Below are positions 583 through 26,347 of a stretch of DNA of 40,532 nucleotides, piece after piece. The stretch lies in NCBI GenBank assembly GCA_902781215.1, contig CACZIO010000028.1, forward strand, positions 1 to 40,532, read 5' to 3'. Each line of letters begins with the position of its first letter. Positions within the stretch are counted from its first letter, which is position 1. The position numbers were made by a program, and so were the translations under genes. The notes below the pieces were generated by a model. It was not told the origin of the DNA, did not search any database, and saw only the letters and a program-made list of their open reading frames with translations. The stretch comes from an uncultured Lachnospiraceae bacterium. GTDB taxonomy: Bacteria > Bacillota > Clostridia > Lachnospirales > Lachnospiraceae.

Positions 583-588
583 AGAATA

Positions 589-635: not shown

Positions 636-641
636 CCCGGC

Positions 642-4693: not shown

Positions 4694-4722
4694 TTGACGA
4701 GTCCGATTTCTTGTGGTATAAT
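4694..4722 (+). promoter_or_regulatory. Sigma-A-type promoter for the XRE gene and possibly the signalling operon
   Basis: TTGACG (4694-4699) and a perfect TATAAT (4717-4722) are 17 bases apart. The expected start of transcription is near 4729, about 75 bases before the XRE start codon. No equally good promoter is visible between the XRE gene and the next gene, so this one may serve the whole downstream operon. Confidence 0.75.
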
Positions 4723-4805
4723 CTGAACAGCATTTGTGTTATATTGCAAAATGTGGAGATATCCGCAAAAAGACGTATATTTCCATCATCATATGGAGGG
4801 AAAAG

Positions 4806-5039: not shown

Positions 5040-5160
5040 ACGCTTCAAACGAGAATGTTCGTTGAGTTTGGAATGTTTGAAAGCGGACGCGATAGCTTTT
5101 GCGGCGCGATCCTGATCGAGCGGTTGCCTGCCGGAAATGAATGGTCTTGAGGTTTGAAAA

Positions 5161-7953
5161 ATGGATGAAAAGAAGGAAACGATAAAAGCCCTGGACCGAT
5201 ATCTCTCCCCTCTTGACGTCTGGGCGATGGCCTTCGGCGTCATGGTGGGCTGGGGAGCGTTCGCCATGCCCGGAAACACCTTCCTCCCGGTGGCGGGACC
5301 CGCCGGCACGCTGATCTCCATGTTCATCGGCATGGCGATCATGCTGGTCATCGGCAGCAGCTTCTCCTATCTCATGGGACGCTCGTCCATCACCGGCGGG
5401 GTCTATTCCTATACCAAGGAGGCCTTCGGACGGGATCACGCCTTTTTGAGCTCCTGGTTCCTGTGCCTTTCCTATCTGACGATCGTGTTCCTCAACGGCA
5501 CAGCCCTGTTCTTCATCCTCCGGATCCTGCTGGACGGGGCCGTGCAGACGGGCGTCCACTATGCCATCGCGGGGAACACCATCTATCTCTCGGAAACGCT
5601 GGTGTCCGCGCTGGTGCTGGGCGGCGTGGGGGTGCTCTTCATCGTGGCGAAGCCCCTGCTGCAGCGCCTCCACACCGTCCTCTCCGCGGTTCTTTTCATC
5701 GGCGTGGCGGTCATTGCGGTCATGTGCGTCCCCCACGCGCTTTCCAGCGGCGCGCTGACGGAGTTCGGGTCCGGCGGAACGGGGAAGGTCTACGCCGTTT
5801 TCAGCCTGGTGATCCTGGCACCCTGGGCCTTCGTGGGCTTTGAGGTCACGTCCTTCGACACGGCGCATTTCAAGTTCCCCATCCGGAAGTCGAAGGGGCT
5901 GATCATCGTCTCCATCATCCTGGCGGCCTTCGCCTATGTGTCCATGACGCTGACGGCCGTATCCGCCGTACCGGAGGGATTCTCTTCATGGCAGGAGTAT
6001 GTCTCCTCCCTGGACGGCCTGACCGGCCTGACCTCCGTGCCGACCTTCTTCGCCGCGGGACGCATCATGGGGACCGCGGGCCTCGCCGTCATTGTCGTCG
6101 CCGCGCTCTCCGGCATCCTGACGGGGATCATCGGCGGGTACCGCGCCGCCACCAGGATCCTCTCCACAATGGCGGAGGACCGCATCCTCTCCGAGCGGTT
6201 TTCCCGGACGAGCTTCAGTATCTTCTTTATCATGGTGATCTCCATCGTGCTGGCGTTCCTGGGACGGAACACCCTGAACTGGTTCGTCGACCTTACCTCC
6301 TTCGGGGCCATCGTCGGCTTCGGGTACACCTGCGCCGCCGCATGGAAGATCGCGAAAGCGGAGGGGAATAAAAAGCAGGCTGTCCTGAGCGTCGTCGGCA
6401 CGGTGATCTCCGCTCTGTTCGCCGTGGTGCAGCTCGTCCCCAGCCTGACCGCCATGGAGGCCATGGGGAGCCAGGCATTCCTCCTGCTGTCCCTGTGGTG
6501 CCTGCTGGGCTTTGTGTTCTACTGGCGGACGATCAAATACGGCATGCTGACGGAACACAGCGGGATGTTCACCTCCGGCACGGTGCTGTTCGCGTTTCTG
6601 ATCTACACGGCGATCATGTGGCTCGGCAAGCAGCTCGCCGGAAAGCAGAGCGTGGATGAGATCCGCTCCGCGCTGTTCGGCGGCGGCTTCGTTCTCCTGC
6701 TGATCATCTTTGTGGGACTCGCGGTCATGCTATACATCCAAAGGCTGGTCCGTATCAAGCATGAAGCCTCCGAGCGGGAGTGGATCCGCGCCGTGGAGGG
6801 AAGCCTTGCCAAGAGCCGGTTCCTTTTCAACATGTCCCACGACATCCGGACGCCCATGAACGCGATCCTGGGCTATACGAACCTCGCTTTGAAGGAGCCT
6901 ACCTCCGATACGTAGCGCGACTATCTGACGAAGATCGAGAGCTCCAGCCAGCATCTGCTGGCGCTCATCAATGACATTCTGGAGATGAGCCGCATCGAGA
7001 GCGGAAAGGTGGAGCTGGAGTACGCTCCCGCCGATCTGTGCGGCATCCTGGACTCCCTGTACGACCTGTTTGCCGAGCAGATGAAGCAGAAGCAGATGGA
7101 TTTCTCCGTCCACACCGCCCAGGTCCAGGACCGCTGGGTCTGGTGCGACAGGAATAATCTTAACCGGGTGCTGCTGAATCTCCTCTCCAACGCCTACAAA
7201 TTCACTGACGACGGCGGCACGATCTCCGCCTCTCTCTACGAGCTGGGCAGCCCGGCGGACGGCTACGGCTCCTATGAGATCCGTATTCAGGACAACGGCA
7301 TCGGCATGTCCAAGGAATTTGTGGAGCGGATGTGGGGCGCCTTTGAGCGCGAACGCAGTTCCACGGACAGCGGCGTGGAAGGCACCGGTCTTGGGCTGGC
7401 GATCACCAAGGGCATCGTGGATATGATGGGCGGCACCATCGAGGTGCTCACCGCCCCCGGCTGCGGCACGGAGATCCTTCTCCGCTTCAAGTTCCGGCTG
7501 GCGGAGAATGAGGAGATCCACAAAGAGAGCGTCGCTGTCGGGGCGGCGGACGAGGAGACGGTGGATTTCACGGGAAAACGCCTTCTGCTGGTGGAGGACA
7601 ACGCCATCAATATGGAGATCGCGAAGATGATCCTGGAGCAGATGGGTTTTTCCCTGGAGACCGCCGAAAACGGACAGGCTGCCGTGGACATGGTCGCCGC
7701 CTCGCAGCCCGGGCATTTTGACGCTGTCCTGATGGATATTCAAATGCCCGTCATGGACGGCTACGCCGCCACGCGGGCGATCCGGGCTCTGGACAATACA
7801 GAGTTGGCGAGTGTGCCGATCTTGGCCATGACGGCCAACGCCTTCCGGGAGGACGTGCAGGCTGCCATGGACGCGGGCATGCAGGCGCACATCGCAAAGC
7901 CCATCGACATCGGCGACCTGACAAAAACGCTCCGATCGGTTCTGAGATCGTGA
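5161..7953 (+). pseudogene. APC-family amino acid permease fused to hybrid histidine kinase and receiver; in-frame TAG at 6913
   Basis: One continuous 930-codon frame broken only by TAG 6913-6915 (codon 585). Residues 1-525 are a multi-pass APC-superfamily permease: GWGAFAMPGNTFLP is the glycine-rich first helix, and TGGVYSYTKEAFG follows. Then comes a kinase: FNMSHDIRTPMNA (His560), N box LLNLLSNAYKFT, DNGIGM and GTGLGLAITKG. A receiver ends the protein: LLVEDNAIN, acceptor Asp859 in LMDIQMP, and AKP. The stop falls inside the dimerization domain between LKEPTSDT and RDYLTKIESSSQHLL, so it looks like one substitution in an otherwise intact gene. Read as it stands, the cell makes a permease with half a kinase domain; restart at an internal ATG such as 6985 would lose the phosphorylated histidine. 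The binding site is a weak GAGG. It is the first gene of the signalling operon. Readthrough or sequencing error are alternatives. Confidence 0.8.
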
Positions 7954-8186
7954 TGCCGGGAGGCAGCGGCAATGTCTTCCGAAGAACGAACTGTATAGGT
8001 GAACGGACTGAAATATGTGAGCAACACACAGGGACACGACGCGGACTGACGGGATACGATCCCGGGCAGACGAAAAACTGCCGTGCGGTCTTTGAACAGG
8101 CCGACGCGCAGGTGCGCGAAGAGAAGAAGCTGCTCAAAAGCCCCGGCGCTGTGACCCGGCTATAAACAAACAGGAGGAAAGATACT

Positions 8187-10409
8187 ATGCAAGAGAACCA
8201 GACGGCTTTCCGCCCCTCTCGCGACAGAAGGCGTATCTTGCTGATCGAGGATGAGTATGTCAACCAGGAGATCCTGAAAATGTTCCTGGAGGACAGCTAT
8301 GACCTTGTTGTGGCGGGAACGGGAACGGAGGCTCTGAACATCATTCGTTCTCAATATGAGATGCTCAGTCTGATCCTGCTGGATCTGAATCTGCCGGATC
8401 TCAGCGGACTTGACATTCTGCGTCAGGTCAAGGCAGACTCCAGAACCGCCCGCCTGCCGGTCATTGTCGCGACCTCCGACGGCGACGCGGAGGTGGAGTG
8501 CCTGACGCTGGGCGCCATTGACTTTATTTCCAAGCCTTATCCGCGGCAGGAAGTCGTTCTGGCGAGAGTGCTGCGCACCATCGAGCTGTCCGAGGATCGG
8601 GATACCCTGAGCCTGACGGAGCGCGATCATCTGACCGGGCTATATAACAAGGAGTTCTTCAATCGCTACGCCGCCCAGCTCGACATCCATCACAGAGACT
8701 GCCCTATGGACGCGATCGTACTGAACGTCAATCAGTTTCATATGATCAATGACCGCTATGGAAAGGTCTACGGCGACGAGGTGCTCCGTCTGATTGCGGA
8801 GAAGATCCTGGAACTCGTTGAACAATCGGGCGGCATCGCAGGCAGGAGTGAGGCGGACAACTTCTGGATCTACTGCCCCCAGTGCGCGGATTATGGCGCG
8901 ACCCTTGAAGCGGTGCAGGGTGACCTGAACGGAGACGGACAGAGCGAAAACCGCATCCGTCTGCGGATGGGCGTGTATTCCAACGTCGATAAGGAGCTGG
9001 ACATCGAGCGCCGCTTCGACCGGGCCAAGCTTGCCGCAGACACCGTGAAGGGCAGCGTTACGAGGGTGATCGGGCGATATGACGACTCTATGCACGAGGC
9101 GGAGCTGCTTGCCGAACAGCTGATCGAGGACTTTCCCGCGGCGATCCGGGAGCGTCAATTCCAGGTTTACTACCAGCCCAAATTCGACGTGCGGCCCAAT
9201 GAACCGATCCTTAACAGCGCGGAGGCTCTGGTGCGCTGGAGGCATCCGACGCTGGGTATGGTAAATCCGGGCGTGTTTATCTCCCTTTTTGAAAACAACG
9301 GACTCATTTCGACGCTGGATCAATATGTCTGGTCCGAAGCTGCGGCGCAGATCAGACAGTGGAAGGATCGTTTCGGGGTCACGCTGCCCGTATCCGTCAA
9401 CGTCTCCCGTGTCGATATGCTCGATCCGGGGCTGATCGAGAAATTGCAGGAGATCGTGACGCGCAACGGGCTGACCACGCGGGAGCTTTTGCTTGAGGTC
9501 ACAGAATCTGCCTATACGGAGGACGCGGAACAGATCATCGAAACTGTCACGCAGCTTCGCAAGCTGGGCTTTCGGATCGAGATGGATGATTTCGGTTCGG
9601 GCTATTCCTCCCTGAATATGCTCTCGTCGCTTCCCATCGACGCTTTGAAGCTGGACATGCAGTTTGTCCGAAACGCGTTCAGGGAGCGGAAGGACACCCG
9701 GCTTCTTGAGGTCATGATCCTGCTGGCAGAGTCCTTTGAACTGCCGACGATTGCCGAGGGCGTGGAAACGGCGGAACAGATGTTCACTCTCAAGATGATG
9801 GGCTGCGCGATCATCCAGGGCTATTATTTCTCGCGCCCTCTCCCTGCGGAAGCGTTTGAAGCGTTTATCGCGGAGAGAAAGGAAATCGAACCGCACACAG
9901 AAGCAAAGAGCGGCCTGACAAGAAAAGACAACTATACATATAATGCGCTCCACGACTCTCTGACCGGGCTCTATAACAACAGTGCCTTTGAGATCCTGTT
10001 CCATGACGCAGACCAGGAGCACATTGCCGTGCTGATCGCCGACATCGACGACTACCCCAATCTCAGGAAAAGCCGGGGGCGGGTATACGCAGACAACTTG
10101 GTTCGCCGTGTGGCTGAAGTTCTGCGAAGCAGCTTCCGCTCTGTGGATCATATTTGCCGGCTGAAGGAGGACGAATTCGTCGTCATCATGTCAAGGATCA
10201 CAAGCTCGCAAAAAGAACTGGTCTTCTCCAAGATCGAGTCTGTTACCCAGGCCCTTTGGGAAGGAACGGACGAGCTTATGCCTGTCACGCTGAGCGTGGG
10301 TATCGCTTTCTCCGACCGGGAGCACCCGGACGGAGACATCTTTCAGGATGCGGACAAAGCGCTCTGGCGGATGCGGGAGATCTGGCATTCCGGTTATGCG
10401 GTATATTGA
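8187..10409 (+). CDS. Response regulator with GGDEF-EAL-GGDEF output (probable c-di-GMP phosphodiesterase)
   Basis: 740 residues, preceded by AGGAGG. An N-terminal receiver has IEDEYVN, acceptor Asp66 in LILLDLNLPD and ISKPY. A first GGDEF fold (about 146-290, HLTGLYNKEFFNRY) has its signature changed to RSEADNF. The EAL domain (about 305-560) keeps the hallmarks of an active phosphodiesterase: EALVRWRHP, LLLEVTES, DDFGSGYSS, LKLD, AEGVETAEQ and QGYYFSRPL. A second GGDEF fold (about 585-740, DSLTGLYNN) reads KEDEF at the signature. Neither GGDEF should make c-di-GMP; they may bind GTP or serve in dimerization. It is the only output protein in the operon and lies 28 bases before the Hpt gene, so phosphorylation probably controls c-di-GMP breakdown. 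A domain on each side of the EAL is unusual. The preceding gap 7954-8186 holds no convincing gene. Confidence 0.88.
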   Translation: MQENQTAFRPSRDRRRILLIEDEYVNQEILKMFLEDSYDLVVAGTGTEALNIIRSQYEMLSLILLDLNLPDLSGLDILRQVKADSRTARLPVIVATSDGDAEVECLTLGAIDFISKPYPRQEVVLARVLRTIELSEDRDTLSLTERDHLTGLYNKEFFNRYAAQLDIHHRDCPMDAIVLNVNQFHMINDRYGKVYGDEVLRLIAEKILELVEQSGGIAGRSEADNFWIYCPQCADYGATLEAVQGDLNGDGQSENRIRLRMGVYSNVDKELDIERRFDRAKLAADTVKGSVTRVIGRYDDSMHEAELLAEQLIEDFPAAIRERQFQVYYQPKFDVRPNEPILNSAEALVRWRHPTLGMVNPGVFISLFENNGLISTLDQYVWSEAAAQIRQWKDRFGVTLPVSVNVSRVDMLDPGLIEKLQEIVTRNGLTTRELLLEVTESAYTEDAEQIIETVTQLRKLGFRIEMDDFGSGYSSLNMLSSLPIDALKLDMQFVRNAFRERKDTRLLEVMILLAESFELPTIAEGVETAEQMFTLKMMGCAIIQGYYFSRPLPAEAFEAFIAERKEIEPHTEAKSGLTRKDNYTYNALHDSLTGLYNNSAFEILFHDADQEHIAVLIADIDDYPNLRKSRGRVYADNLVRRVAEVLRSSFRSVDHICRLKEDEFVVIMSRITSSQKELVFSKIESVTQALWEGTDELMPVTLSVGIAFSDREHPDGDIFQDADKALWRMREIWHSGYAVY

Positions 10410-10437
10410 ATTGTGATCAGGAAAGGATGAAAAGAAA

Positions 10438-10779
10438 ATGACGGTTAACGATTTGAAAACCTACGGCGCCGATACCGAGGAAGGACTGCGGCGCTGCATG
10501 AACAACGAGAGCTTTTATCTTCGGCTGGTGAAAATGATCCCGGGAGACGCGAGCTTCCCGAAGCTCTATGACGCCGTTGACAAGGGCGACCTGGATGCCG
10601 CCTTTGAAGCCGCGCATGCGCTCAAAGGCAGTGCCGGCAACCTTTCGCTGACGCCGATCTTCGCGCCGATCAGTGAGATCACGGAGCTGCTCCGCGCGAG
10701 AACGCAGACGGATTATTCAGCGCTGATCAATCAGATCCGCGAAGCCCGGGACGAGCTGGCACACATCTGTGAGGAATAA
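10438..10779 (+). CDS. Stand-alone Hpt phosphotransfer protein
   Basis: 113 residues. The Hpt signature AAHALKGSAGNLSL places the phosphorylated histidine at residue 60, in the expected four-helix bundle with no other domain. Hpt proteins carry phosphate between the receiver of a hybrid kinase and the receiver of a response regulator. None of the four hybrid kinases nearby has an Hpt domain of its own, so this one is the obvious shared carrier. It follows the receiver-EAL gene by 28 bases, with AGGA upstream of the ATG, and is surely cotranscribed. It is cytosolic, with no membrane segment. Confidence 0.9.
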   Translation: MTVNDLKTYGADTEEGLRRCMNNESFYLRLVKMIPGDASFPKLYDAVDKGDLDAAFEAAHALKGSAGNLSLTPIFAPISEITELLRARTQTDYSALINQIREARDELAHICEE

Positions 10780-10827
10780 TCGCTTTCTTCACTGATTTCT
10801 GCGATCCTGCAGCAAACAAAGGCATGT

Positions 10828-10864
10828 CCTCTGCAGGTATCCTGAGAAAAGGAGCCTGCAGAGG
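10828..10864 (+). repeat. Long intergenic hairpin between the Hpt and sensor-kinase genes
   Basis: Perfect 10-bp arms CCTCTGCAGG (10828-10837) and CCTGCAGAGG (10855-10864), with an inner 4-bp TCCT/AGGA stem. No T-run follows, so it is not an ordinary terminator. It may protect or divide the operon mRNA. Confidence 0.6.
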
Positions 10865-10885
10865 CGGGAGACGTTTGAAAGAAGG

Positions 10886-13435
10886 ATGGGTTTCGGTATG
10901 AAGAAAGCGCGGATCGCCATTGTCAATATCGCGATCATGGTGGGAATACTGATCTTTGTCATTCTGTATTCCAGCTATGAAGGCAAGGCCGCACTCCGCC
11001 GACAGGTGGAGAGCTTTGTGAGCACCACCGTCGCGATGGAGCATGTGACGGAGAATTATATGGCGGGCGAACAGCACATCTGCGACGTGTGGGCGCGCTA
11101 TATCAACAGCAAGGGTATGAGTATCGAGGAGGCCGCCTCCTTCATCTGCATCTCTCATGTGACGCAGACCGCCTCTGCGCATATCGTGTATCTCGATACG
11201 CTGTCCGGTCTGTCTACGAGGGCAAGGCAGGATGCCGCCGACGACTATGCCGTCTCTTACGGACGGATAGGTCTTCTGAACGATGTGAGCTGGATCAATG
11301 ATATCGGGAAATCCGTCAACATTTCCCGCGCCTATACAAACCCGGTCAACGGGGAACAGTCCATAGCCTTCTGCAATAATGTCACGCTTCAAGATTCAGA
11401 AACCGGCGAGCTCCGTGACGCCGTGCTGCTGCGCGTGCTACCGATCGCGGAGATGGCGCAGAAATGGATCTTCCCGCAGGAAGGGTTTGAAAACACCGAA
11501 CTGTCCATGATTGATGCGAACGGCGATTATATCATCAAGGGCCATTCCTTCAAAAATTCCAGTTTCTTCGAGTTTTACAGGTCTTACAACACCATTGATC
11601 CAGCCTCCGCGCAGGAGTTCTTTGAAACCATCACGTCTTCGACCGGCTCCTTTACTATGCTCAACTCCCGCGGGGAGAAATGTATCCTCGCCTATACCCC
11701 GGTCGACGCGACAGGAGGATGGACGCTTCTCAGCTTCATGCCGATGAAGGATCTGCGCGTAAATACCGAAAACTGGCTGTTGATCGGCGTTATTTCCGCA
11801 GCCCTTCTGCTCCTCTTCGTGTTTGACCTGTCTGTCATGCTTAATTTCAATAAGAAGCTCCAGGCGGCGGCCAGAGAAGCGGCCTCGGCGAACAGGGCAA
11901 AAACCGATTTTCTCTCCACCATGTCGCATGATATCCGCACGCCGATGAACGCCATTATGGGCTTGACGACCATTGCGGAGAAGAATCTGGGAGACACGGA
12001 ATCGGTGGCCGATAATCTTCGGAAAATCGGCCTTGCCAGCAATCATCTTTTGTCTTTGATCAACGACATCCTGGATATCTCCAAGGTGGAGAGCGGCAAG
12101 CTGAATCTGAGTCCCCTGACCTTCTCCATCGTCGATACGGTCGAGAACCTGGTCAACATCTCCCAGCCGATGATCAAGGAAAAGAACATCAGCTTCAGCT
12201 TCCGTATCAACCGTATGGAAAAGGAATATCTGTATGCTGATCAGCTGCGCCTGAATCAGATCTACATCAACATCCTTTCCAACGCGATCAAATACACGGA
12301 GCCGGGCGGAAGCGTCAGCGTAGATATGCGGGAGGAGGAAAGCGAGACGCCCGGCTGCGTCAAGCTGACCTACGTCGTTGCCGATACGGGCATGGGCATG
12401 AGCCCCGAGTTCATGGCAAAGATGTACGAGCCCTTCTCCCGTCAGACAGACAGCCGCGTCAACACCATTCAGGGCACCGGCCTCGGCCTTGCGATCACGA
12501 AGCAGATGGTGGATCTGATGAACGGCGTCATCGACTGCCAGAGCGAGCTGGGGAAGGGCACGACCTTCACCATCGTTTTGGATATTCCGGTCGCGGACAA
12601 GCAGCTCGACGACATGCGGCTCGAGCCCATCGACGTGTTGATCGTGGACGACGACACGGTCCTGCTGGAGACCGCCGTGGACGCGCTGGAGTCCTTGGGC
12701 GTCACCGCGGAGAAGGCCGAAGACAGCGTAACGGCGCTGGAGATGATCCGGCAACGTCAGGAGTCCGGCCGACAGTACGGCGTCGTGATCCTGGACTGGA
12801 AGATGCCCGGCATGGACGGCGTGGAAGCTGTAAGGCGCATCCGATCCGAGATCGACGAGAACGTCCCGATCCTGCTGATCTCGGCCTATGACTGGTCCGA
12901 CATCGAAGACGCGGCAAAGGATGCCGGCGTAAACGGCTTTATCAGCAAGCCCCTCTTCCGCTCAAAGCTGTATGATAAGATCAACGAGCTTCTGGGAACG
13001 GAAGCGAAGTCTGCGGAGCCGGAGGATGATTACTCCGACCTTGCCGGAATAAGCATTCTCGTCGCGGAGGATAACGACATCAACTGGGAGATCATCTCCG
13101 CCATGCTGGGGATGTTTGGAATCGTGACGGAGCGCGCGGAGAACGGTCAGATATGCGTCGACAAGATGAAGGCGGCGGAACGCGGACAATACGCCCTTGT
13201 CTTCATGGATATCCAGATGCCGGTCATGAACGGACTGGATGCCGCAAGGAATATCCGCGCGCTGGAGGATCCGTGGGCGTCCTCTATCCCGATCATCGCC
13301 ATGACGGCGGACGCGTTTTCGGAAAATGTCACAGAATGCCTGAACGCCGGCATGAACGGACATATCGCAAAACCCGTAGACATCAGACTTGTCATCAAAG
13401 AGATCCGCAGGATCAAGGAGGAAAAGAAAGCATGA
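10886..13435 (+). CDS. Membrane sensor hybrid histidine kinase with two receivers
   Basis: 849 residues from ATG 10886; a second in-frame ATG at 10898 (MKKARIA) is an equally likely start. A first membrane helix (about 10-30, IAIVNIAIMVGILIFVI) and a second (about 296-318, LIGVISAALLLLFVFDL) enclose an extracellular domain of about 260 residues. That domain resembles double Cache sensors (SMIDANGDYIIKGHSF, AYTPVDATGGWTLLSFMP). The kinase follows: STMSHDIRTPMNA (His348), LSNAIKYTEPGG, DTGMGM and GTGLGLAITKQ. Receiver 1 has VDDD, LDWKMPGMD and SKP. Receiver 2 has AEDNDIN, FMDIQMPVMN and AKP. Having two receivers and no Hpt suggests transfer to the separate Hpt protein. It overlaps the downstream lipoprotein gene by four bases, so the lipoprotein is probably its ligand-binding partner. 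The Cache call is by pattern only. Confidence 0.88.
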   Translation: MGFGMKKARIAIVNIAIMVGILIFVILYSSYEGKAALRRQVESFVSTTVAMEHVTENYMAGEQHICDVWARYINSKGMSIEEAASFICISHVTQTASAHIVYLDTLSGLSTRARQDAADDYAVSYGRIGLLNDVSWINDIGKSVNISRAYTNPVNGEQSIAFCNNVTLQDSETGELRDAVLLRVLPIAEMAQKWIFPQEGFENTELSMIDANGDYIIKGHSFKNSSFFEFYRSYNTIDPASAQEFFETITSSTGSFTMLNSRGEKCILAYTPVDATGGWTLLSFMPMKDLRVNTENWLLIGVISAALLLLFVFDLSVMLNFNKKLQAAAREAASANRAKTDFLSTMSHDIRTPMNAIMGLTTIAEKNLGDTESVADNLRKIGLASNHLLSLINDILDISKVESGKLNLSPLTFSIVDTVENLVNISQPMIKEKNISFSFRINRMEKEYLYADQLRLNQIYINILSNAIKYTEPGGSVSVDMREEESETPGCVKLTYVVADTGMGMSPEFMAKMYEPFSRQTDSRVNTIQGTGLGLAITKQMVDLMNGVIDCQSELGKGTTFTIVLDIPVADKQLDDMRLEPIDVLIVDDDTVLLETAVDALESLGVTAEKAEDSVTALEMIRQRQESGRQYGVVILDWKMPGMDGVEAVRRIRSEIDENVPILLISAYDWSDIEDAAKDAGVNGFISKPLFRSKLYDKINELLGTEAKSAEPEDDYSDLAGISILVAEDNDINWEIISAMLGMFGIVTERAENGQICVDKMKAAERGQYALVFMDIQMPVMNGLDAARNIRALEDPWASSIPIIAMTADAFSENVTECLNAGMNGHIAKPVDIRLVIKEIRRIKEEKKA

Positions 13436-14730
13436 AAAAGCTGATCTGCATCATTTTAGCCATTTGCGCAGCCGTATCGCTGACAGCCTGCGGCGGCAAA
13501 ACGCAGGAGGAGACCGCCGCGGGATTCAAGCCGGCTCTCGACACCAATACAAGCTGCAGCATCACGGTAGTTGGAAGCTATGACAACTTTGAGGCGCTGG
13601 AGGCGGAATTTGACCGGTTCAACGAGTTCTATCCGAACGTTCAGCTCAGCTATGTGAAGCTGGACGACTACAGCAATACGCTGGTCACCGCGCTGGAAGG
13701 CAATGACAAACCCAATATTTTCTTCACCACCGCCTCGATGATCGGGAACGAGCAGTATGATCCGGTATTTGCTCTTGCGGAGGATCTTGCGGACCCGGCC
13801 CTGGGTTTGGATCTGGACTGCATCCGCCCCGGCCTCATCAACCATGACGCGGAAGGCCGCGTGCTGCTGGTTCCGGTTTTTTCCCGATCCTATGGTATGC
13901 TGGTGAACAAGGACCTGTTTGAAAAGGAAGGGCTCGACATTCCAACTACATGGACGGAGCTGCTGGCCGTCTGCGAAGCGTTCCGCGGCAAAGGCTGCTC
14001 AAGCCCCATGATGGGCTACAGTCTTAAGTCGTCGAGCTGTTTCATGTACACGGTCGCCTACCCGCTGTTTGCGGCTGCCCTTGCCGAAAACCCGGAAGCG
14101 CTTGTGCTCGCCAATGAACTGGATCCCGCGGCGGGAGAAACCATGCGCCCGGCCCTGGAGGCGGTGGAGCAGCTGATCGGAAGCGGCTGTATCGATCTCG
14201 ACGCGTGCGATATGATCGAGGACAACTATACCCAGGTGATCCTCCGCTTTTTTGAAGGCGATGTGCCGATGATGATCTGCGCCGGTGATACCGTATCCGG
14301 CACCAGAAAACGGGAGAGTCAGTCGGAGGCATTCACCAATGCGCCCTTCGATTACTCGTTTGCCCCGATCCCCTTGACGGAGGAAGGCGGATATTTTATC
14401 GACAGTCCTTCCGTGGAGTTCTCCGTCAACAAGGACTGCGACGATCTGGATATGACAAACGAATTCATGCGGTTTCTGATCACAAGGGAAGAGCTGAACG
14501 CGATGGCTTCGGTGAAGCGCCTGGTAACGCCCACTACCGATCTGTCCTTTGATGCGGTTTACGCTCCTTTCGGGCAGGTGCCGTCGGAGCGTACCATCTC
14601 TCCGGAGGTGCTCGGCATTACGGATGCGCTTACGGTTCAGATCCGACTCGCGGCGTTCCAGGTCGGAAAAGGCGATATCACGGTGGATGAAGCCGTCACG
14701 ATGTACGGAAGCCTGGAAGAAACGCAGTAA
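13432..14730 (+). CDS. Extracellular solute-binding lipoprotein
   Basis: 432 residues from ATG 13432, which overlaps the previous stop (ATGA) and has AAGGAGG upstream. A lipoprotein signal is clear: MKK, a hydrophobic core, then LTAC before GGK, so Cys20 or a neighbour would be lipidated and hold it on the outer face of the membrane. The mature protein follows the family 1 carbohydrate-type binding protein pattern: ITVVGSYDNFEALEAEFDRFNEFYPNVQ, then PVFSRSYGMLVNKDLFEKEGL and TTWTEL. No ABC permease or ATPase gene is nearby. Encoded between two kinase genes and coupled by overlap to a Cache-type kinase, it most likely presents a ligand to the kinase rather than feeding a transporter, in the manner of LuxP with LuxQ. 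That role is inference. Confidence 0.85.
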   Translation: MKKLICIILAICAAVSLTACGGKTQEETAAGFKPALDTNTSCSITVVGSYDNFEALEAEFDRFNEFYPNVQLSYVKLDDYSNTLVTALEGNDKPNIFFTTASMIGNEQYDPVFALAEDLADPALGLDLDCIRPGLINHDAEGRVLLVPVFSRSYGMLVNKDLFEKEGLDIPTTWTELLAVCEAFRGKGCSSPMMGYSLKSSSCFMYTVAYPLFAAALAENPEALVLANELDPAAGETMRPALEAVEQLIGSGCIDLDACDMIEDNYTQVILRFFEGDVPMMICAGDTVSGTRKRESQSEAFTNAPFDYSFAPIPLTEEGGYFIDSPSVEFSVNKDCDDLDMTNEFMRFLITREELNAMASVKRLVTPTTDLSFDAVYAPFGQVPSERTISPEVLGITDALTVQIRLAAFQVGKGDITVDEAVTMYGSLEETQ

Positions 14731-14832
14731 TCCACGGGCGAAAAGCATCCCGGCATACCCGTCGGACCGGGGGCTCTGTCTGAGACAACGGAAGCGCTGA
14801 TGAAGTGTATATGATATGAAAAGAGGCTGACC

Positions 14833-16893
14833 ATGGCGAACAAGGTTTTCCAGATGAATGATCAGACGGCGTTCATGATCCGGGAACTGGGCGGACACAT
14901 GCCCGGGGGGTTCTTCATTTACAAAGCCGAAGAGCCGGAAGAGCTTCTCTATGCAAACAAGCCTGTCTTTGATATCTACGGCTGCGACGATCTTGAGGAT
15001 TTCAAAAAGCTGACGGGCTATACCTTCCGGGGCATGGTGCATCCGGAGGATTACCGCCGCATCTCAGACTCCGTTGCGGAACAGATCGACGCCAGCGATG
15101 ACAACATGGACTATGTGGAATACCGGATCATCCGCAAGGACGGCGCCGTCCGCCGGGTGGACGACTACGGCCACTATCTGGAGACAGACGTTTACGGAGG
15201 AGTTTATACGGTCTTTATTTCCGACATCACGGAGAAGCATGAACGGATCGTGTCGGAACTGGAAGGTCATAAAGCGACGATCGACACCCTGAACGAGACC
15301 ATCGGCAGGATGGACGCTGATCACCTCACTTTCAGCAGCGTCGCACAGGCTCTCGCCGGGGACTATTTCAGCATTTATGTGGTCGATCCCGACACAGAAG
15401 CCTTTGTCGAGTACAGCTCCTCGGAGGAGTACAAGAATCTGGGTATCGAAACGCAAGGGGCGAACTTCTTTGAGCTGAGCCGCAGGAACATGGAAACCTT
15501 GATCTATCCGGAGGATCGGGAACGCTTTATGGCGGTTTTTTCCCGTGAAAGGGTACTGAAAATCATCGAACGGGACGGCCACTTCACGACAAAATACCGT
15601 CTTATGCTCAATGGCATTCCTACGTATGTCAGCATGAAGGCAACTCTTCTGGAAAACCGGAACGAACGCCGACTGATCATCGGCCTCACCAACATCGACG
15701 CCCAGATGAAGCGCGAGGAGGAATTCCGGAAACATATGGCGGAGGCAAGGACCCGCGCGAAAAACGATTTTCTTGCCAACATGTCCCATGATATCCGCAC
15801 CCCGATGAACGCCATCGTGGGTTATACGAACATCGCCAAAAGCCATTGGGATGAGCCGGAGGTCGTAGCGGACGCGCTGGATAAGATCGGTTCCTCCAGC
15901 CATTTTCTGCTCTCTCTGATCAATGATATTCTTGATATCTCCAAGATCGAAAGCGGAAAAATGCAGCTCAGCTTGGCAGCCTGCGATCTCAGAGATATTT
16001 TCCGGCGTATCGAGGATATTACGGCGCGGCAGGCGAAGAACAAGTCCATTACGATCACCTATTCGCACGACACAGTACATCATTACAAGGTAATGGCAGA
16101 CGACCTGCGGATCGAGCAGGTCCTGATCAATATCACCGGCAACGCCATCAAATACACGCCGGAGGGGAAGAGCGTCGAGCTGATCGCGGAAGAACTCGGA
16201 GCGACAGAAGACAAAAAGATAAAATATCGCTTCATTGTCAGAGATACCGGCATCGGTATCAGCAAAGAGTATTTGCCTCATATATTCGAGAGCTTCACAC
16301 GTGAAGAGAAAACAACAGTAAACCGCGTGCAAGGCACGGGCCTCGGGCTTGCGATCACAGCCAAAGTCGTTGAAATGATGGGCGGCGTGATCTCAGTCAA
16401 AAGCAAGCAGGGCGAGGGCTCGGAATTCACGGTCGAGCTTGCTCTGGAGCCCTCCGAGCCGGACGAGAATACCGCGGAGGCGAACGAGATCCAGTATGCC
16501 GCTCTGAACGGCAAGCGGGTCCTGCTGGTAGAGGACAACGCGATCAACGCGGAGATCGCCACCATCGTGCTTGAGCAGTACGGGATCGCGGTCGACCACG
16601 CCGAAAACGGCCGGATCGGCGCAGATAAAGTGAAGAATGTCGAAGCCGGTTATTACAGCGCCGTCCTCATGGACATTCAAATGCCGGTCATGAACGGCTA
16701 CGAGGCGACGCGGGCCATCCGGTCATTACCGGGTGAGTATTACAGGACGCTTCCCATCATCGCCATGAGCGCGAACGCCTATGACGAGGATATTCGGGCG
16801 AGTCTGGACTCCGGGATGAACGCTCATATCGCCAAGCCTTTCCAGCCTGACGATTTGATAAAAACACTGTGCCGGTATATAGTCGATCAGTGA
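14833..16893 (+). CDS. Cytosolic PAS hybrid histidine kinase with one receiver
   Basis: 686 residues with no signal peptide or membrane helix. The first PAS domain (about 15-135) includes GGFFIYKAEEPEELLYANKP and EYRIIRKDGAVRRVDDYGHY, typical of PAS_3-type folds. A second, less typical PAS-like region (about 160-290) includes DYFSIYVVDPDTEAF. The kinase has ANMSHDIRTPMNA (His319), LINITGNAIKYTPEG, DTGIGI and GTGLGLAITAK. The receiver has LLVEDNAIN, acceptor Asp614 in LMDIQMPVMN and AKP. AGAGG stands upstream of the ATG. It lies 102 bases after the lipoprotein gene in the same operon. As a soluble sensor it probably reads a cytoplasmic signal such as a metabolite or redox state; the ligand cannot be told from the sequence. 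Confidence 0.88.
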   Translation: MANKVFQMNDQTAFMIRELGGHMPGGFFIYKAEEPEELLYANKPVFDIYGCDDLEDFKKLTGYTFRGMVHPEDYRRISDSVAEQIDASDDNMDYVEYRIIRKDGAVRRVDDYGHYLETDVYGGVYTVFISDITEKHERIVSELEGHKATIDTLNETIGRMDADHLTFSSVAQALAGDYFSIYVVDPDTEAFVEYSSSEEYKNLGIETQGANFFELSRRNMETLIYPEDRERFMAVFSRERVLKIIERDGHFTTKYRLMLNGIPTYVSMKATLLENRNERRLIIGLTNIDAQMKREEEFRKHMAEARTRAKNDFLANMSHDIRTPMNAIVGYTNIAKSHWDEPEVVADALDKIGSSSHFLLSLINDILDISKIESGKMQLSLAACDLRDIFRRIEDITARQAKNKSITITYSHDTVHHYKVMADDLRIEQVLINITGNAIKYTPEGKSVELIAEELGATEDKKIKYRFIVRDTGIGISKEYLPHIFESFTREEKTTVNRVQGTGLGLAITAKVVEMMGGVISVKSKQGEGSEFTVELALEPSEPDENTAEANEIQYAALNGKRVLLVEDNAINAEIATIVLEQYGIAVDHAENGRIGADKVKNVEAGYYSAVLMDIQMPVMNGYEATRAIRSLPGEYYRTLPIIAMSANAYDEDIRASLDSGMNAHIAKPFQPDDLIKTLCRYIVDQ

Positions 16894-16952
16894 ACACGAG
16901 CTATGCGGACTATGAGAGGATCATCGGACAATAAGCAGACGGAGGAAAAAGC

Positions 16953-19900
16953 ATGAAGATCAGAAAGAATACGGCGTTTTTGACATGCACCGCAATATTG
17001 CTGTTCCTCATCCTGTCGCTCGGCGCGCAGATGTCGATAACGACAGCGGCTGCGGGTCACGAGGGCATCACCGTCCGTGTAGGCTATTATGAAAACGAGG
17101 TTTTCCAGGAAGGCGCACGGGAGGGAGCTGTCAAATCCGGGTACGCCTATGAGTACTATCAGAAGCTCTCGGAGTATACCGGATGGCAGTATGACTATGT
17201 TTACGGCGAATTCGGAGACCTGTACCAGATGCTTCTGGACGGCGATATAGATTTCCTCGCGGGTCTTGCCTGGCGGGAGGATCGTGAGGAGATCATAGGG
17301 TATCCGGACGCGGCTATGGGCAATGAGACATATAACCTCGTCAAGCATGACGCCGATGAGGATATAACCGTCGCCCCCTCTACGCTGGACGGGAAAAAGA
17401 TCGGCGTCCTCGACAGTGCAATGGCGGGTGTGCTGCAAGCGTATCTGGAGGAGCATGAGGTACAGGCTGAAATCGTTCTTTTCCGGGACTATGAGCCCCT
17501 TTTTGACGCTTTTGACAACCATGACATTGACGTTATGGCCGTGGAGGGAGACGGGGCATACGGACGGCCTAACGCAGAGCTTTTATATGCGTTTGGCGCT
17601 TCAGACTATTATCTTTGCGTTGCGAAATCACGCCTAGAGCTGTTGACTGAACTGAATGAAGCGCAGACGGAGCTTGCGGCGAATGAGCCGAACTATATCA
17701 ACTCGCTGCGCAGCAGATACTATCCTGTCAGCATTTCGAGCCGAGCCTTTTCCGCGACTGAGAAGCAGTGGCTCTCCGGGCACGACGAGCTGCGTGTAGG
17801 TTATCTGAATCACTATCTGCCATACAGTGACACGGACGATTCGGGGGATGTGACCGGGATCGTCAGAGATGTCGTTCCGAGGATGCTGGAGGAGCTCGGT
17901 ATCAGTCACATTTCCGTTTCCTTTGTCGGCTACGACAGCTACGACAGGATGATCTCCGCCCTGAGCGACGGAGAGATCGATACGGCCTTCCCCGTTGGCG
18001 GCGGTCTGTACTATTCCGAGGAGAGCGGTATTTTCCAGTCCGCACCCGTCGTATCTGCCGCCACGGAGCTGGTCCACCGGGGAGAGTATACGGAGGAAAC
18101 GACAGCCCGTTTTGCGGTCAATGAGAACAACCGTATGCAGTATTACTTCGTGCTGACCCATTATCCGGACGCCGAGATCGTTTTCTATCCCTCGATCGAC
18201 GACTGCCTGCAGGCGGTCAGCGAAGGCAGTGTGGGCTGCACCACCTTGAACGGACTGAGAGCGAACGATATCCTGCGCAACAGCCGTTACAGCGGCCTGG
18301 CTCTGCTCCAGACGACGTATGACGACGACCGGTGCTTTGGCGTTGAGATCGGCAACGCCGGACTTTTGAGACTGCTCAACCGGGGCATCAACGTGCTGGG
18401 CTCTGATTACGCGCAGAATCTGGCGTTCCGCTATACGGATCAGTTGTATTCCTATTCCGTATGGGACATGATCCAAAACAACATGGCGCTCTTTGGCAGC
18501 GCTATCCTCGGCATCGCCGCTTTGATCATCCTGTTTCTCGTTCGCGACGCCAGAAGATCCAGGCGGGAGATCCAAAACAAGGAAAACGCCCGGGTCGAAC
18601 TGGAAAAGGCGAATACGGAGCTGGCAGAAAGCCAGGCGGCGAAGCAGCGCGAGCTGGAGGAACGGCTAGCGCTGCAGGGGGAATTGCTGGAGCAGCAATC
18701 GCGCCGGGAGCAGCAGGACAAGATGATCACCGCTCTGGCGTCGGATTATCGCTGCGTATATCACGTTGATCTGGATCGTGACGATGCCGTCTGTTATCGG
18801 GAAGATCCCACGGACTCCGAGCAGACGAAAGAAGGGATCCACTTTCCGTATCATGAACGCTTTGTCTGGTATGCAGAGCATTGTGTCGCGGAGAACTACC
18901 GCGAAGGTTTTCTGCGGTTCATCGACCCGGAGTACATACAGTCGGCGCTTTCAAACGAGCTGATCATTGCCTATCGGTATCTCGCCCAAAGAAATGGGAA
19001 AGAGTACTATGAAATGATCCGTATGGCGGGCGTGCGCCACGCGGAGGATCGCGACGACCACATCGTACACGCCGTGGGCCTCGGTCTCACAGTCATCGAC
19101 GAGGAAATGCGGGAGGCGATGGCGAAGAACCGGGCGCTGGCGGAGGCGCTCAGCGCAGCCGAGGAAGCAAATAAAGCCAAGACGGCATTCCTGTCCAACA
19201 TGAGCCACGAGATCCGCACCCCAATGAACGCGATCATCGGTCTGAACAACATCGCCATGAACGATCCCACGGCCAGCGATAAGGTCAAGGAATACCTGGG
19301 AAAGATCGGCGATTCCGCCCATCATTTGCTGGGGATCATCAACGACATCCTGGACATGAGCCGCATCGAATCCGGACGCATGACCATCAAAAAGGAGGAG
19401 TTCTCCTTTGCCAAGGCGCTGGAGCAGGTCAACACGATCGTCAGCGGCCAGTGCCGGGACAAGGGGCTCGTCTACGACTGCCGCGTCATCGGTCAGGTGG
19501 ACGATTATTATATCGGCGACGCCACGAAGCTCAAGCAGGTGATGATCAACATTCTCGGCAACGCGGTCAAGTTCACGCCGGAGGGCGGGACGGTCCGCTT
19601 TATGATCGAGGAGGGACCGCGCTATGACGGGCAGGCGACGCTCCGCTTTATCATCAGCGACACCGGCATCGGTATGAGCAAGGAGTTTCTGCCCCGGATT
19701 TTTGACGCCTTCAGCCAGGAGGACTCTTCCTCCACCAGCCGCTACGGTTCGACGGGCCTGGGCATGCCGATCACCAAGAGCATCGTGGAGCTCATGAACG
19801 GCCACATTGAGGTAGAAAGCGAAAAGGGCAAGGGCACTGTTTTTACGGTAACCGTTACGCTGGGCGAATCGGAGAGAAAGAATCTCCCAACCGAAGAGGA

Positions 19901-20708
19901 TGATTTGGTTTCCAAGGATATGAGCGTTCTGGTGATCGACGACGACCGGATCGCTCTTGAACACGCGGAAATCATTCTCGGCCAGGTGGGCGTAAGCTGC
20001 GATACGGCGGAATCCGGCTGGGAGGGCGTGGACAAGGTCCGCATCCGTCACGGGCGGCGGGAGGACTATGATCTGATCCTGATCGACTGGAAAATGCCCG
20101 AAATGGACGGCGTCGAGACGACGCGGCATATCCGTGAGATCGTCGGTCATGATACGCCCATTATCATCCTTACGTCGTTTAACTGGGAGGAGATAGCGGA
20201 TGAGGCCAAGGAGGCCGGCGTAGACACCTTCGTGTCAAAGCCGCTGTTTGCCGAGAACGTGATGGACGAGTTCAGGGAAGCCTTCCGCCGCAAGCATGAG
20301 GCGCTGGAAGAGAATACAGCGGATCTGAAGGGACGCAGGGTACTACTGGCGGAGGACGTGGCGGTGAACGCCGAGATCATGATGATGGTGCTGGCTATGC
20401 GGGAGATAGAGGTCGATCTTGCAGAAAACGGCAGGGTCGCCGTGGACCTGTTTGAAAGCCATGAGCCGGGCTATTACGACGCGATCCTGATGGATATGCG
20501 CATGCCGGAAATGGACGGGCTCGAGGCAACGCGCCATATCAGAGCCTCTGATCACGCCGACGCGAAAAGCATCCCGATCATCGCGCTCACTGCCAACGCT
20601 TTCGACGAGGACGTTCAGCGCAGTTTGCAGGCCGGGCTGAACGCGCATCTGAGCAAGCCCGTCGAGCCGGAGCTTTTGTTTGAGACGCTGGAAAAGCTGA
20701 TAAAGTAA
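16953..20708 (+). CDS. BvgS-like hybrid histidine kinase with two periplasmic-binding domains and two receivers
   Basis: 1251 residues with GGAGG before the ATG. An N-terminal signal/anchor (about 10-35) is followed by two family 3 solute-binding (Venus flytrap) domains. The first covers about 40-255 (ITVRVGYYENEVFQEG, GEFGDLYQMLLDGDIDFLAG). The second covers about 275-495 (ELRVGYLNHYLPYSD, YDRMISALSDGEIDTAF). A membrane helix (about 510-530), a coiled coil, and a PAS-like domain (about 575-700) follow. The kinase has SNMSHEIRTPMNA (His752), NILGNAVKFTPEGG, DTGIGM and GSTGLGM. Receivers lie at about 990-1110 (IDWKMPEMD) and 1125-1250 (LMDMRMPEMD, SKP). Family 3 domains usually bind amino acids or similar small molecules. 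It is the last gene of the operon and is followed after about 220 bases by a strong terminator. Confidence 0.9.
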   Translation: MKIRKNTAFLTCTAILLFLILSLGAQMSITTAAAGHEGITVRVGYYENEVFQEGAREGAVKSGYAYEYYQKLSEYTGWQYDYVYGEFGDLYQMLLDGDIDFLAGLAWREDREEIIGYPDAAMGNETYNLVKHDADEDITVAPSTLDGKKIGVLDSAMAGVLQAYLEEHEVQAEIVLFRDYEPLFDAFDNHDIDVMAVEGDGAYGRPNAELLYAFGASDYYLCVAKSRLELLTELNEAQTELAANEPNYINSLRSRYYPVSISSRAFSATEKQWLSGHDELRVGYLNHYLPYSDTDDSGDVTGIVRDVVPRMLEELGISHISVSFVGYDSYDRMISALSDGEIDTAFPVGGGLYYSEESGIFQSAPVVSAATELVHRGEYTEETTARFAVNENNRMQYYFVLTHYPDAEIVFYPSIDDCLQAVSEGSVGCTTLNGLRANDILRNSRYSGLALLQTTYDDDRCFGVEIGNAGLLRLLNRGINVLGSDYAQNLAFRYTDQLYSYSVWDMIQNNMALFGSAILGIAALIILFLVRDARRSRREIQNKENARVELEKANTELAESQAAKQRELEERLALQGELLEQQSRREQQDKMITALASDYRCVYHVDLDRDDAVCYREDPTDSEQTKEGIHFPYHERFVWYAEHCVAENYREGFLRFIDPEYIQSALSNELIIAYRYLAQRNGKEYYEMIRMAGVRHAEDRDDHIVHAVGLGLTVIDEEMREAMAKNRALAEALSAAEEANKAKTAFLSNMSHEIRTPMNAIIGLNNIAMNDPTASDKVKEYLGKIGDSAHHLLGIINDILDMSRIESGRMTIKKEEFSFAKALEQVNTIVSGQCRDKGLVYDCRVIGQVDDYYIGDATKLKQVMINILGNAVKFTPEGGTVRFMIEEGPRYDGQATLRFIISDTGIGMSKEFLPRIFDAFSQEDSSSTSRYGSTGLGMPITKSIVELMNGHIEVESEKGKGTVFTVTVTLGESERKNLPTEEDDLVSKDMSVLVIDDDRIALEHAEIILGQVGVSCDTAESGWEGVDKVRIRHGRREDYDLILIDWKMPEMDGVETTRHIREIVGHDTPIIILTSFNWEEIADEAKEAGVDTFVSKPLFAENVMDEFREAFRRKHEALEENTADLKGRRVLLAEDVAVNAEIMMMVLAMREIEVDLAENGRVAVDLFESHEPGYYDAILMDMRMPEMDGLEATRHIRASDHADAKSIPIIALTANAFDEDVQRSLQAGLNAHLSKPVEPELLFETLEKLIK

Positions 20709-20852
20709 AAGTGTCAAGCGGCAGGTGTATTCAAATGCCGCCGGACAAGAAAACACAGCAAGAAAACACAAATGGCATTCTGTGCTTTTTCTTCGATCGT
20801 ATGGGAGCGGATGGAAAGAGGATGGAAAGCAGCAGATACTGGCTTCCCTGTT

Positions 20853-21140: not shown

Positions 21141-21183
21141 ACTGTTATGAAACGACTTGTTCCTGTTCTGTTTGGAGGCTCTT

Positions 21184-21792
21184 ATGCGCAAAAAAGATGA
21201 AAACCGTATGCAGGTTATACGAGACTGCATCGACAGTTATTACAGCGCCTACGGCGAGATACCCACCGTGCGTGACATTTCCGCAAACACCGGTATCGCC
21301 GTCACCACGGTCCATCGTTATCTGACGGCGCTGAAGGAATCCGGCGAGCTCGAATACAATGGTCGCCGCTCCATCATCACAAAGCGGATCAACATGGAAT
21401 CGGCGCAGTATTCCATGCCGGTTCTCGGTTATGTGCGCTGCGGCCCCGGCGAGGAAGAGGAAGAAGCGGTCATCGAGTACATCCGCCTGCCGGAGAGCAT
21501 GGTCGGCCGGGGCGAGTTCTTCGCCCTCATCGCCAAGGGCGAGTCCATGATCGACGTCGGTATTCATCCCGGTGACTATGTGATCATAAGAAAGCAGAAC
21601 TACGCTGAGCCCGGGGAACTCATCGTTGCGCTGTACGAAGGACTGAACAATTTGAAACAGCTTGCCTATGACGATGACGAGCACCGATATGTTCTGCGGT
21701 CCTGCAATGAGGATAAGGAATCCTATCCCGACATTTCGTTCGAGGAGCTCACGATCCAGGGCGTGGCCGTGGGCGTCTATCACGGATTTTGA
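21184..21792 (+). CDS. LexA-like autocleaving repressor (S24 family)
   Basis: 202 residues from ATG 21184, chosen for GGAGG 5 bases upstream. An N-terminal winged helix resembles that of LexA (DCIDSYYSAYGEIPTVRDIS, then TTVHRYLTALKESGEL). The C-terminal S24 peptidase domain has catalytic Ser121 (AKGESMIDVGIHPGDYV) and Lys158 (NNLKQL). The likely cleavage bond is Cys86-Gly87 in YVRCGPG. The spacing of cleavage site, serine and lysine equals that of E. coli LexA (84/85, 119, 156) shifted by two. A Cys-Gly bond is used by UmuD. The gene stands between the oriT candidate and the mobilization genes, so it could link DNA damage to transfer or excision. It may be an element-specific regulator rather than the host LexA. 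Confidence 0.85.
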   Translation: MRKKDENRMQVIRDCIDSYYSAYGEIPTVRDISANTGIAVTTVHRYLTALKESGELEYNGRRSIITKRINMESAQYSMPVLGYVRCGPGEEEEEAVIEYIRLPESMVGRGEFFALIAKGESMIDVGIHPGDYVIIRKQNYAEPGELIVALYEGLNNLKQLAYDDDEHRYVLRSCNEDKESYPDISFEELTIQGVAVGVYHGF

Positions 21793-21929
21793 TTTCGTTA
21801 ATATGAGCAATTTCATCCGGCGGTGACAAGATTCGACAGTTTTCGCTCTTCCGTTTTGTTACACTATAGCTCAGCTTCGACTTACTTCGCGTGCTCCAAT
21901 CTGGAAACGCGATTTCATCACAGAGCTCA

Positions 21930-22041
21930 AAAACGACCTGGTCATTTTTACCATATCGTTTTCGCCTGAGGCCCCTTTTGAGGACTCAGGCGATCCTGCC
22001 CCTGGACAAAACGATTGACCCATTTTGGGATAATCGTTTTT
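21930..22041 (+). promoter_or_regulatory. Three hairpins before the mobilization genes, two of them related
   Basis: Hairpin 1: AAAACGA (21930-21936) with TCGTTTT (21956-21962) plus an inner TGGT/ACCA stem. Hairpin 2: TCGCCTGAG (21962-21970) with CTCAGGCGA (21985-21993). Hairpin 3: AAAACGAT (22008-22015) with ATCGTTTT (22033-22040) plus inner CCCA/TGGG. Hairpins 1 and 3 share arm sequence and a two-part design, and hairpin 3 ends in a T-run. They may act as terminator or attenuator between the repressor and mob genes. Confidence 0.55.
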
Positions 22042-22070
22042 CAAGTCTTTCTAAAACCAAGAAAGAAAGA

Positions 22071-22499: not shown

Positions 22500-22584
22500 A
22501 CCCCGGGTGTATCAAGGCTTTCCGGACGCAGAGGTCGGGGTGCCCGCATACCTTGTACCACCTACCCCAAAAGAGGTAATTCAA

Positions 22585-24328: not shown

Positions 24329-24355
24329 ACACGATAGACGGAGGAATGATCTGTT

Positions 24356-26347
<1,992 letters not shown>

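Follow-up and report, generated by a model that had tools for sequence, protein, structure and literature searches.

In Pseudomonas aeruginosa PA14, the island PAPI-1 carries rcsC, pvrS and the EAL regulator gene pvrR of the rcsBC-pvrRS system, and PvrS is a hybrid sensor said to require an external Hpt (PMC2696094). The Roc system, with RocS1, RocS2 and RocR, is also found in P. aeruginosa (PMC12051241), and in Vibrio four kinases feed one regulator via LuxU (PMC4398556). Diguanylate cyclases from a genomic island of Vibrio alginolyticus are an example of mobile-element cyclic diguanylate (c-di-GMP) enzymes that act in other hosts (PMC10672970). Here we analysed a stretch of 40,532 nt from an uncultured Lachnospiraceae bacterium (contig CACZIO010000028.1 of assembly GCA_902781215.1, forward strand), which is called the window below. 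The original prediction placed seven genes in one direction at 5161-20708, with intergenic gaps of -4 to 233 bases, and this layout was confirmed. Pfam also found the four hybrid histidine kinases, seven receivers in all, the free Hpt and the solute-binding lipoprotein that had been predicted, except that the first kinase gene is broken by a stop codon at 6913-6915. The seventh product, described as a receiver-EAL protein, does have both domains, in the fuller order REC-GGDEF-EAL-GGDEF. The block formed by these genes is fairly likely to be a transferable, module-swapping phosphorelay that connects many inputs to a c-di-GMP phosphodiesterase.

In this relay, the conserved core would be the Hpt and the phospho-receiver phosphodiesterase, whose first GGDEF domain is degenerate. 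Interchangeable hybrid kinases would be attached to it, namely a kinase with an amino-acid-permease sensor, a membrane kinase with a sugar-binding lipoprotein, a PAS kinase and an SBP_bac_3 kinase. Each kinase would autophosphorylate and transfer the phosphate to its own receiver, the kinase receiver would pass it to the shared Hpt, and the Hpt would pass it to the receiver of the phosphodiesterase. The outcome would be that c-di-GMP is lowered (or released) according to the availability of amino acids and plant sugars. The block of sensor genes probably signals to a gut bacterium when c-di-GMP should be degraded.

The EAL catalytic residues were kept in 83/83 family members whose alignment covers them, and the REC Asp was kept in 79/79 covered at that position (84 members examined). 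The GG(D/E)EF motif was found in neither GGDEF domain of the window's protein, which reads EADNF in the N-terminal domain and KEDEF in the C-terminal one, and the N-terminal domain was non-canonical in at least 82/83 relatives. Since the EAL motifs and the REC Asp are intact and the GGDEF motifs are non-canonical, the protein is likely to be a receiver-gated phosphodiesterase. The phospho-acceptor His of the Hpt was invariant in 27/27 family members. The structure model of the Hpt had a predicted local distance difference test score (pLDDT) of 97.3, and its best structural matches were Hpt domains of known structure, among them 3myf and 7c1i (template modelling score 0.72, best E 2.5e-3). The window's own genome, which is 94.67% complete, has 20 HisKA matches versus 2 Hpt matches. 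It has 7 GGDEF matches in 4 frames (contigs C8, C28, C44 and C5), and 3 of the 4 frames belong to the REC-GGDEF-EAL family. By these counts, both the Hpt and the enzyme of the operon are rare in the host, whose c-di-GMP network is very small. The second Hpt gene of the genome (L174:7714-8046, contig C69) lies apart from kinases and encodes a member of the same Hpt family with 56% identity. A comparison of genome-wide Hpt and phosphodiesterase co-occurrence was dropped, as long Hpt frames, probably CheA, dominate the counts.

Pairing of the Hpt with the output protein was examined by a co-divergence (mirror) test with partial correlations on 19 non-redundant loci. The Hpt followed the REC domain of the EAL protein when EAL was controlled for (partial r 0.48, p 0.0002), versus r 0.11 (p 0.11) for the reverse, Hpt with EAL given REC. 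The rank version with a GGDEF-EAL control gave 0.34 (p 0.0005) versus 0.05 (p 0.29), and the 15 adjacent pairs of Hpt and REC gave 0.45 (p 0.0005). Co-divergence thus lends specific support to the pairing of the Hpt with the receiver of the EAL protein. Receiver classes have been described (PMC9981736). An Asn in receiver alpha-1 was present in 75/80 EAL receivers and 45/48 terminal kinase receivers and in 0/28 internal ones, and the alpha-1 identity was 0.38 between EAL and terminal receivers and 0.27 between EAL and internal receivers. Because alpha-1 motifs of this kind occur in other receivers too, the Asn counts for little.

Three near-identical copies of the block (L031, L032 and L080) were found in hosts G260, G261 and G308, respectively, all of which are metagenome-assembled genomes (MAGs). 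Two of the three, those in G308 (from goat omasum) and G261 (from water buffalo rumen), can be read into their flanks. In G308, the whole block is embedded in a contig of 214.5 kb that extends past both of its ends, and the full gene order is seen again; in L031 it is seen up to the contig end. In G261, the left part is on a 15.4-kb contig up to position 10938, and the right end of the operon, followed by a right flank of its own, is at one end of a contig of 268.8 kb. The DNA identity to G308 was 86% at 4599-5073, 98.6% at 5139-8251 and 93.8-94.2% at 8252-20793, and that to G261 was 95.9% at 4099-5082, 96.7% at 5076-10938, 95.2% at 20585-20918 and 84% from there to 21004. The block spans ~4.6-20.8 kb (~16 kb), and outside the matching stretches just given the G308 and G261 flanks that were read matched neither the window nor each other. 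The G+C content (GC) of the operon part is 0.55 in G308, where the flanks have 0.45-0.48, and 0.58 in G261, where they have 0.63-0.64. In the window it is 0.57 for the operon, 0.53 for the left 4 kb, 0.44 for 26323-28300 and 0.61 for the remaining right side.

Kinship of the hosts was gauged by rho DNA scores and RarA protein identity. RarA of the window's host was 48.7% identical to that of G308, 41.1% to that of G261 and 46.7% to that of G260, while RarA of G308 was 39.3% identical to that of G261 and 74.0% to that of G260. The rho score versus the own host was 260 bits for G308 and 397 bits for G260, and the rho DNA search gave no match in G261; same-genus references scored 700-1361 bits (35/36 genomes matched) and other-family references 102-377 bits (13/24 matched). 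Compared in 500-base steps, the window's identity to G308 varies between 87 and 100% (differences of 0-13%), as would be expected of repeated recombination. All seven genes have a ratio of nonsynonymous to synonymous substitution rates (dN/dS) of 0.10-0.27 between the window and G308, and by this measure they are under purifying selection. The block appears to have moved recently between distant ruminant-gut hosts.

Related clusters were collected by a scan that gave 443 phosphodiesterase relatives, and the best 79 of these 443 were analysed as loci (named L with a number). Judged by their titles, the 79 loci are largely from ruminant gut MAGs, the RUG series genomes among them, and many of the loci are shortened by contig ends. 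They contain 83 EAL-bearing frames, with one gene of L035 represented by two frames and the three near-identical copies counted. The gene chains around these frames were assigned with hidden Markov models built for this analysis, and the frames were divided into short (<=800 aa) and long ones (the rest). A chained Hpt, kinase or permease gene was found for 41/55 short frames versus 7/28 long ones, and a chained Hpt gene for 26/55 versus 3/28. When only well-flanked chains were considered (>=1.5 kb from both contig ends), the numbers were 17/25 short versus 3/16 long (p 0.0036) for any of the three genes and 11/25 versus 1/16 (p 0.013) for Hpt. The permease is fused to GGDEF in L053, L055 and L077, among others, and to GGDEF-REC-GGDEF-EAL in L059 and L060, and contig C44 of the own genome encodes a 1300-aa protein in which a permease is fused to REC-GGDEF-EAL. 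Through these fusions, the permease sensor is linked to enzymes of c-di-GMP metabolism. In four loci a GGDEF gene is directly followed by an Hpt gene (L067:18119-19987, L069:13148-14904, L079:17643-19414 and L092:1592-3348). In the window's genus, 9/62 genomes, its own included, have a close phosphodiesterase relative at the cut-off used. Ruminant-gut Firmicutes may share plug-in c-di-GMP cassettes, in which sensors are added to, lost from or swapped around an Hpt and REC-EAL core and multi-kinase operons jump between families; we give this wider view an even chance.

The features of the locus are listed in Table 1. The original prediction stated that there is no DNA-binding regulator, and this was contradicted by an HTH_26 gene 121 bases upstream of permease-kinase 1 on the same strand. 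It is kept in both hosts with a readable left side, where it heads the operon (98.7% amino acid identity in G308 and 94.8% in G261), and L031 is uninformative since its contig starts at position 5179. A relative with 42% identity is also the first gene of cluster L077, so that the layout headed by a helix-turn-helix protein recurs. The unit is thus larger than described before. The promoter scan found 13 sites versus 9.4 expected and is weak by itself, and the hexamers of the site upstream of the HTH_26 gene are identical in G261 and one base off in G308. This site is the probable start of the transcription unit, from which the genes may be co-transcribed. There was no Rfam match, and so no riboswitch, in the whole window, and riboswitch control of the operon was ruled out on this ground. 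In seven further loci Rfam found only a group II intron, close to the related cluster in L070 (L070:14253-14339, minus strand).

Table 1. Features of the operon and of the adjoining mobilization module (positions in the window)
Feature	Position	Strand	Basis and remarks
Sigma-70-like promoter, 11/12 match, extended TG	4694..4722	+	consensus scan
HTH_26, Cro/C1-type small DNA-binding protein, 77 aa	4806..5039	+	Pfam
Permease-kinase 1, first half: AA_permease_2 and start of HisKA	5161..6915	+	Pfam, frame reading; ends at in-frame amber stop
Permease-kinase 1, second half: HATPase and receiver, same frame	6985..7953	+	Pfam
REC-GGDEF(degenerate)-EAL-GGDEF, predicted c-di-GMP phosphodiesterase, proposed output	8187..10409	+	Pfam
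Free Hpt, 113 aa, proposed hub	10438..10779	+	Pfam
Hybrid kinase 2: N-terminal sensor-HisKA-HATPase-REC-REC	10886..13435	+	Pfam
Sugar-type solute-binding lipoprotein, SBP_bac_1	13432..14730	+	Pfam; likely start 13432
Hybrid kinase 3: PAS-HisKA-HATPase-REC	14833..16893	+	Pfam
Hybrid kinase 4: SBP_bac_3 (x2)-unassigned linker-HisKA-HATPase-REC-REC	16953..20708	+	Pfam
Right limit of block shared with G308	20709..20793	+	alignment; G261 shares to ~20918, then patch to 21004
Mobilization module: LexA-like S24 protein, Cys_rich_VLP, DUF3847, MobQ, TnpW-like, TnpX-type	21157..26322	+	Pfam, NCBIfam
MobQ relaxase	22856-24328	+	NCBIfam, 256.5 bits, cut-off 200
TnpX-type serine recombinase (DUF4368)	24592-26322	+	Pfam

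The in-frame amber stop splits permease-kinase 1 within the HisKA helix. Since the frame is unbroken in L031, L032 and L080 (94-99.6% DNA identity over the operon parts that they hold), the stop is either a nonsense change confined to this copy or an error in the sequence, and amber recoding was ruled out on the same evidence. The two halves of this gene (5161-7953) have a third-position GC of 0.83-0.87 versus 0.70-0.75 in the remaining operon, which suggests that the permease-kinase gene is of separate origin. The sensor of kinase 2 is presumably transmembrane and extracellular; its structure model (pLDDT 41) had too poor a fold to be used. The relatives of the lipoprotein are mostly sugar-binding proteins, and the operon has no ATP-binding cassette (ABC) permease gene. 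We propose that the lipoprotein is a co-receptor of kinase 2, and the two genes also adjoin in L076 and L098. Kinase 3 is likely to be cytosolic.

Downstream of the operon, genes for a MobQ relaxase, a TnpW-like protein and a TnpX-type recombinase were found. The TnpX-type large serine recombinase agrees with that of Tn4451-type elements; the TnpW-like match is marginal (24.1 bits, just below the 25-bit cut-off), and the relaxase is MobQ and not the MobV of that type. Left of the operon, a serine recombinase gene at 553-2367 (minus strand), whose end might have been shifted by an exact 31-base tandem duplication at 778-839, adjoins a frame with a recombinase zinc-ribbon (2214-3068, minus strand), and the two are probably remains of other mobile elements (553-3068, minus strand). 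On the other side, right next to the TnpX-type recombinase, there is a fragment of an MCRA-family (oleate-hydratase-type) gene (26696-27232, minus strand), possibly truncated by insertion, and a homolog of CotH-type kinases lies at 30388-32562 in the right flank. A scan for tyrosine-recombinase motifs pointed to L044 and L061 among the 79 loci. For the phosphodiesterase, neither plasmids (467 partial tblastn matches) nor phages (56) had a record with one place covering 80% of the protein, and no relative was found in IMG/VR, where only close relatives were sought. Carriage by a plasmid, phage or virus was rejected on the basis of these searches.

That the operon is cargo of the adjoining TnpX/MobQ integrative mobilizable element and moves with it as a unit seems doubtful to us. 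A complete-looking module, with the LexA-like, DUF3847, MobQ, TnpW-like and TnpX-type proteins, does start ~450 bases past the operon, and a DUF6061 gene, of a family common on mobile elements, lies upstream and is partly kept in G261. Recombinase genes also occur near two related clusters. In L036 there is a TnpX relative 1.1 kb after the cluster. In L040, a 453-aa serine recombinase (L040:11109-12470, plus strand; 21% like TnpX) is encoded 8.3 kb past the phosphodiesterase gene, and immediately before that gene there is a serine recombinase fragment (L040:1-292, minus strand) with 47% likeness to the left recombinase of the window. However, a look at the readable surroundings of the operon revealed nothing of the module in G308 (2.9 kb to the right and 15.4 kb to the left) or G261 (18.3 kb to the right and 8.4 kb to the left). 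A single DUF4368 match was found in G308, away from the operon contig, and none in G261. The TnpX relative of L036 is without its start and its frame is disrupted, and it is the only TnpX-type neighbor seen across the 79 loci (1.155 Mb), where ~0.4 were expected by chance (46 DUF4368 matches in 49 genomes, ~127 Mb, reached from 50/79 loci). The full gene order was seen again in G308 and, up to the contig end, in L031, and a TnpX relative stood close by in L036. A repeat search of the window returned mostly homologous kinase and receiver segments, with no element ends recognised, and since relatives of the module DNA, found in 18 other genomes of 397 searched, are only 67-72% alike, the left end could not be mapped. 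Of the predicted cargo on a mobilizable element, the horizontal mobility is borne out by the G308 and G261 copies, and the TnpX/MobQ element as the carrier of the mobile operon is unproven.

For the relay itself, several observations weigh against a shared circuit that moved as a whole. Co-divergence with the Hpt was absent for the terminal receivers of the kinases (14 two-receiver kinases from 12 loci; partial r -0.09, p 0.78), and the internal receivers showed a weak trend (0.23, p 0.059) that the model does not predict. Over the whole receiver domain, the identity of EAL receivers to terminal kinase receivers (29%) was hardly above that to internal ones (26%). Among well-flanked frames, 8/25 short and 13/16 long ones had no chained kinase, Hpt or permease, and Hpt genes are also found apart, beside a GGDEF gene (L067, L069, L079 and L092) or alone (C69 of the own genome). 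Moreover, kinase 1 is interrupted in the own genome, the operon middle is absent from the G261 contigs read, and all three near-identical copies come from MAGs. Of these, L031 was not relied on for transfer because its 12-kb contig, 99.6% identical and wholly inside the block, could be misbinned. If the kinases used other partners, the pairing would be limited to the Hpt and the phosphodiesterase, with input perhaps coming from distant kinases. The terminal receivers fit this explanation, as do the 5/25 well-flanked short loci that have an Hpt and a REC-GGDEF-EAL gene without a chained kinase or permease (L064, L066, L068, L071 and L094). It is nevertheless rather unlikely, since the hybrid kinases carry HisKA, HATPase and a receiver and no Hpt of their own (for kinase 1, as seen in unbroken relatives only), the genome has only one other Hpt, and kinases are chained in 10/25 well-flanked short loci. 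For the predicted many-to-one relay onto c-di-GMP, the intact EAL residues, the 2 Hpt matches against 20 HisKA and the co-divergence of the Hpt with the EAL receiver speak in favor of it, and for its kinase-to-Hpt half, where the terminal-receiver test was negative, the case is built on gene linkage and the logic of the domains. An assembly or binning artefact, with a repeated block placed on wrong contigs and a false transfer, is very improbable. The metagenomic origin of the copies and the operon-only contig of L031 would agree with it, but the G308 copy has both flanks on its long contig and, differing from the window by up to 13% in 500-base steps, is not a collapsed copy, and the G261 copy differs from the window too and has its own right flank.

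Phosphorelays are usually regarded as slowly evolving and insulated. Here, a four-kinase relay of 16 kb is shared almost unchanged by the window's host and G308, between which RarA identity is 49%, and both of its ends are found in G261 as well (39-41%). If the relay reading is right, a complete multi-sensor circuit, not a single gene, can be transferred and kept under selection, and bacteria would gain from their neighbors a ready-made multi-input decision on attachment. With only four GGDEF frames in the own genome, one acquired phosphodiesterase could reset the c-di-GMP of its host. Insulation, promiscuity and module swapping in relays would become testable, with natural variants at hand.

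In Vibrio, LuxQ works with a binding protein, a setup similar to that of kinase 2 and the lipoprotein. LuxO, the output of the LuxU relay, differs from the window's in being a transcription regulator and not an EAL enzyme, and the genes of that relay are scattered and are not known to form a mobile block. As proposed for the operon, the LuxU relay brings many kinases onto one Hpt (PMC4398556). The Roc system is similar in that branched sensors act on several regulators, the EAL protein RocR among them; it differs in that RocS1 has its own Hpt (PMC2696094), and its account does not describe it as a mobile block (PMC12051241). The c-di-GMP enzymes of the V. alginolyticus island are mobile as well, but they are cyclases, and no kinases or Hpt are mentioned with them (PMC10672970). 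Permease-kinase 1 resembles Ks-Amt5 (PMC5764959) and CbrA (PMC7096432), in which a transporter fold is joined to a histidine kinase; in those proteins the transporter is of the ammonium or SLC5 type, and no c-di-GMP output is mentioned in their accounts (PMC5764959, PMC7096432). The mobilization module shares with Tn4451-type elements a TnpX-type serine recombinase and a relaxase, which is MobV in Tn4451 (PMC5704250) and MobQ beside the operon. Among the top matches of a literature search, which did not cover subscription papers, no description of such clusters in gut Firmicutes was found. The rcsBC-pvrRS system of PAPI-1 is similar in that a horizontally acquired island carries PvrS, a hybrid sensor dependent on an Hpt from outside, and PvrR, an EAL regulator that counters a biofilm programme (PMC2696094). 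The claim in the original prediction that no described element carries such a set was too strong, given rcsC, pvrS and pvrR on that island (PMC2696094). Unlike the operon, the PAPI-1 system is proteobacterial and has two sensors, one of them with its own Hpt; fimbrial genes and the DNA-binding regulator RcsB are linked to it, and its account names no free Hpt gene for rcsBC-pvrRS (PMC2696094). The cassette described here is known in kind, and it is new in its scale, its hosts and its mobility.

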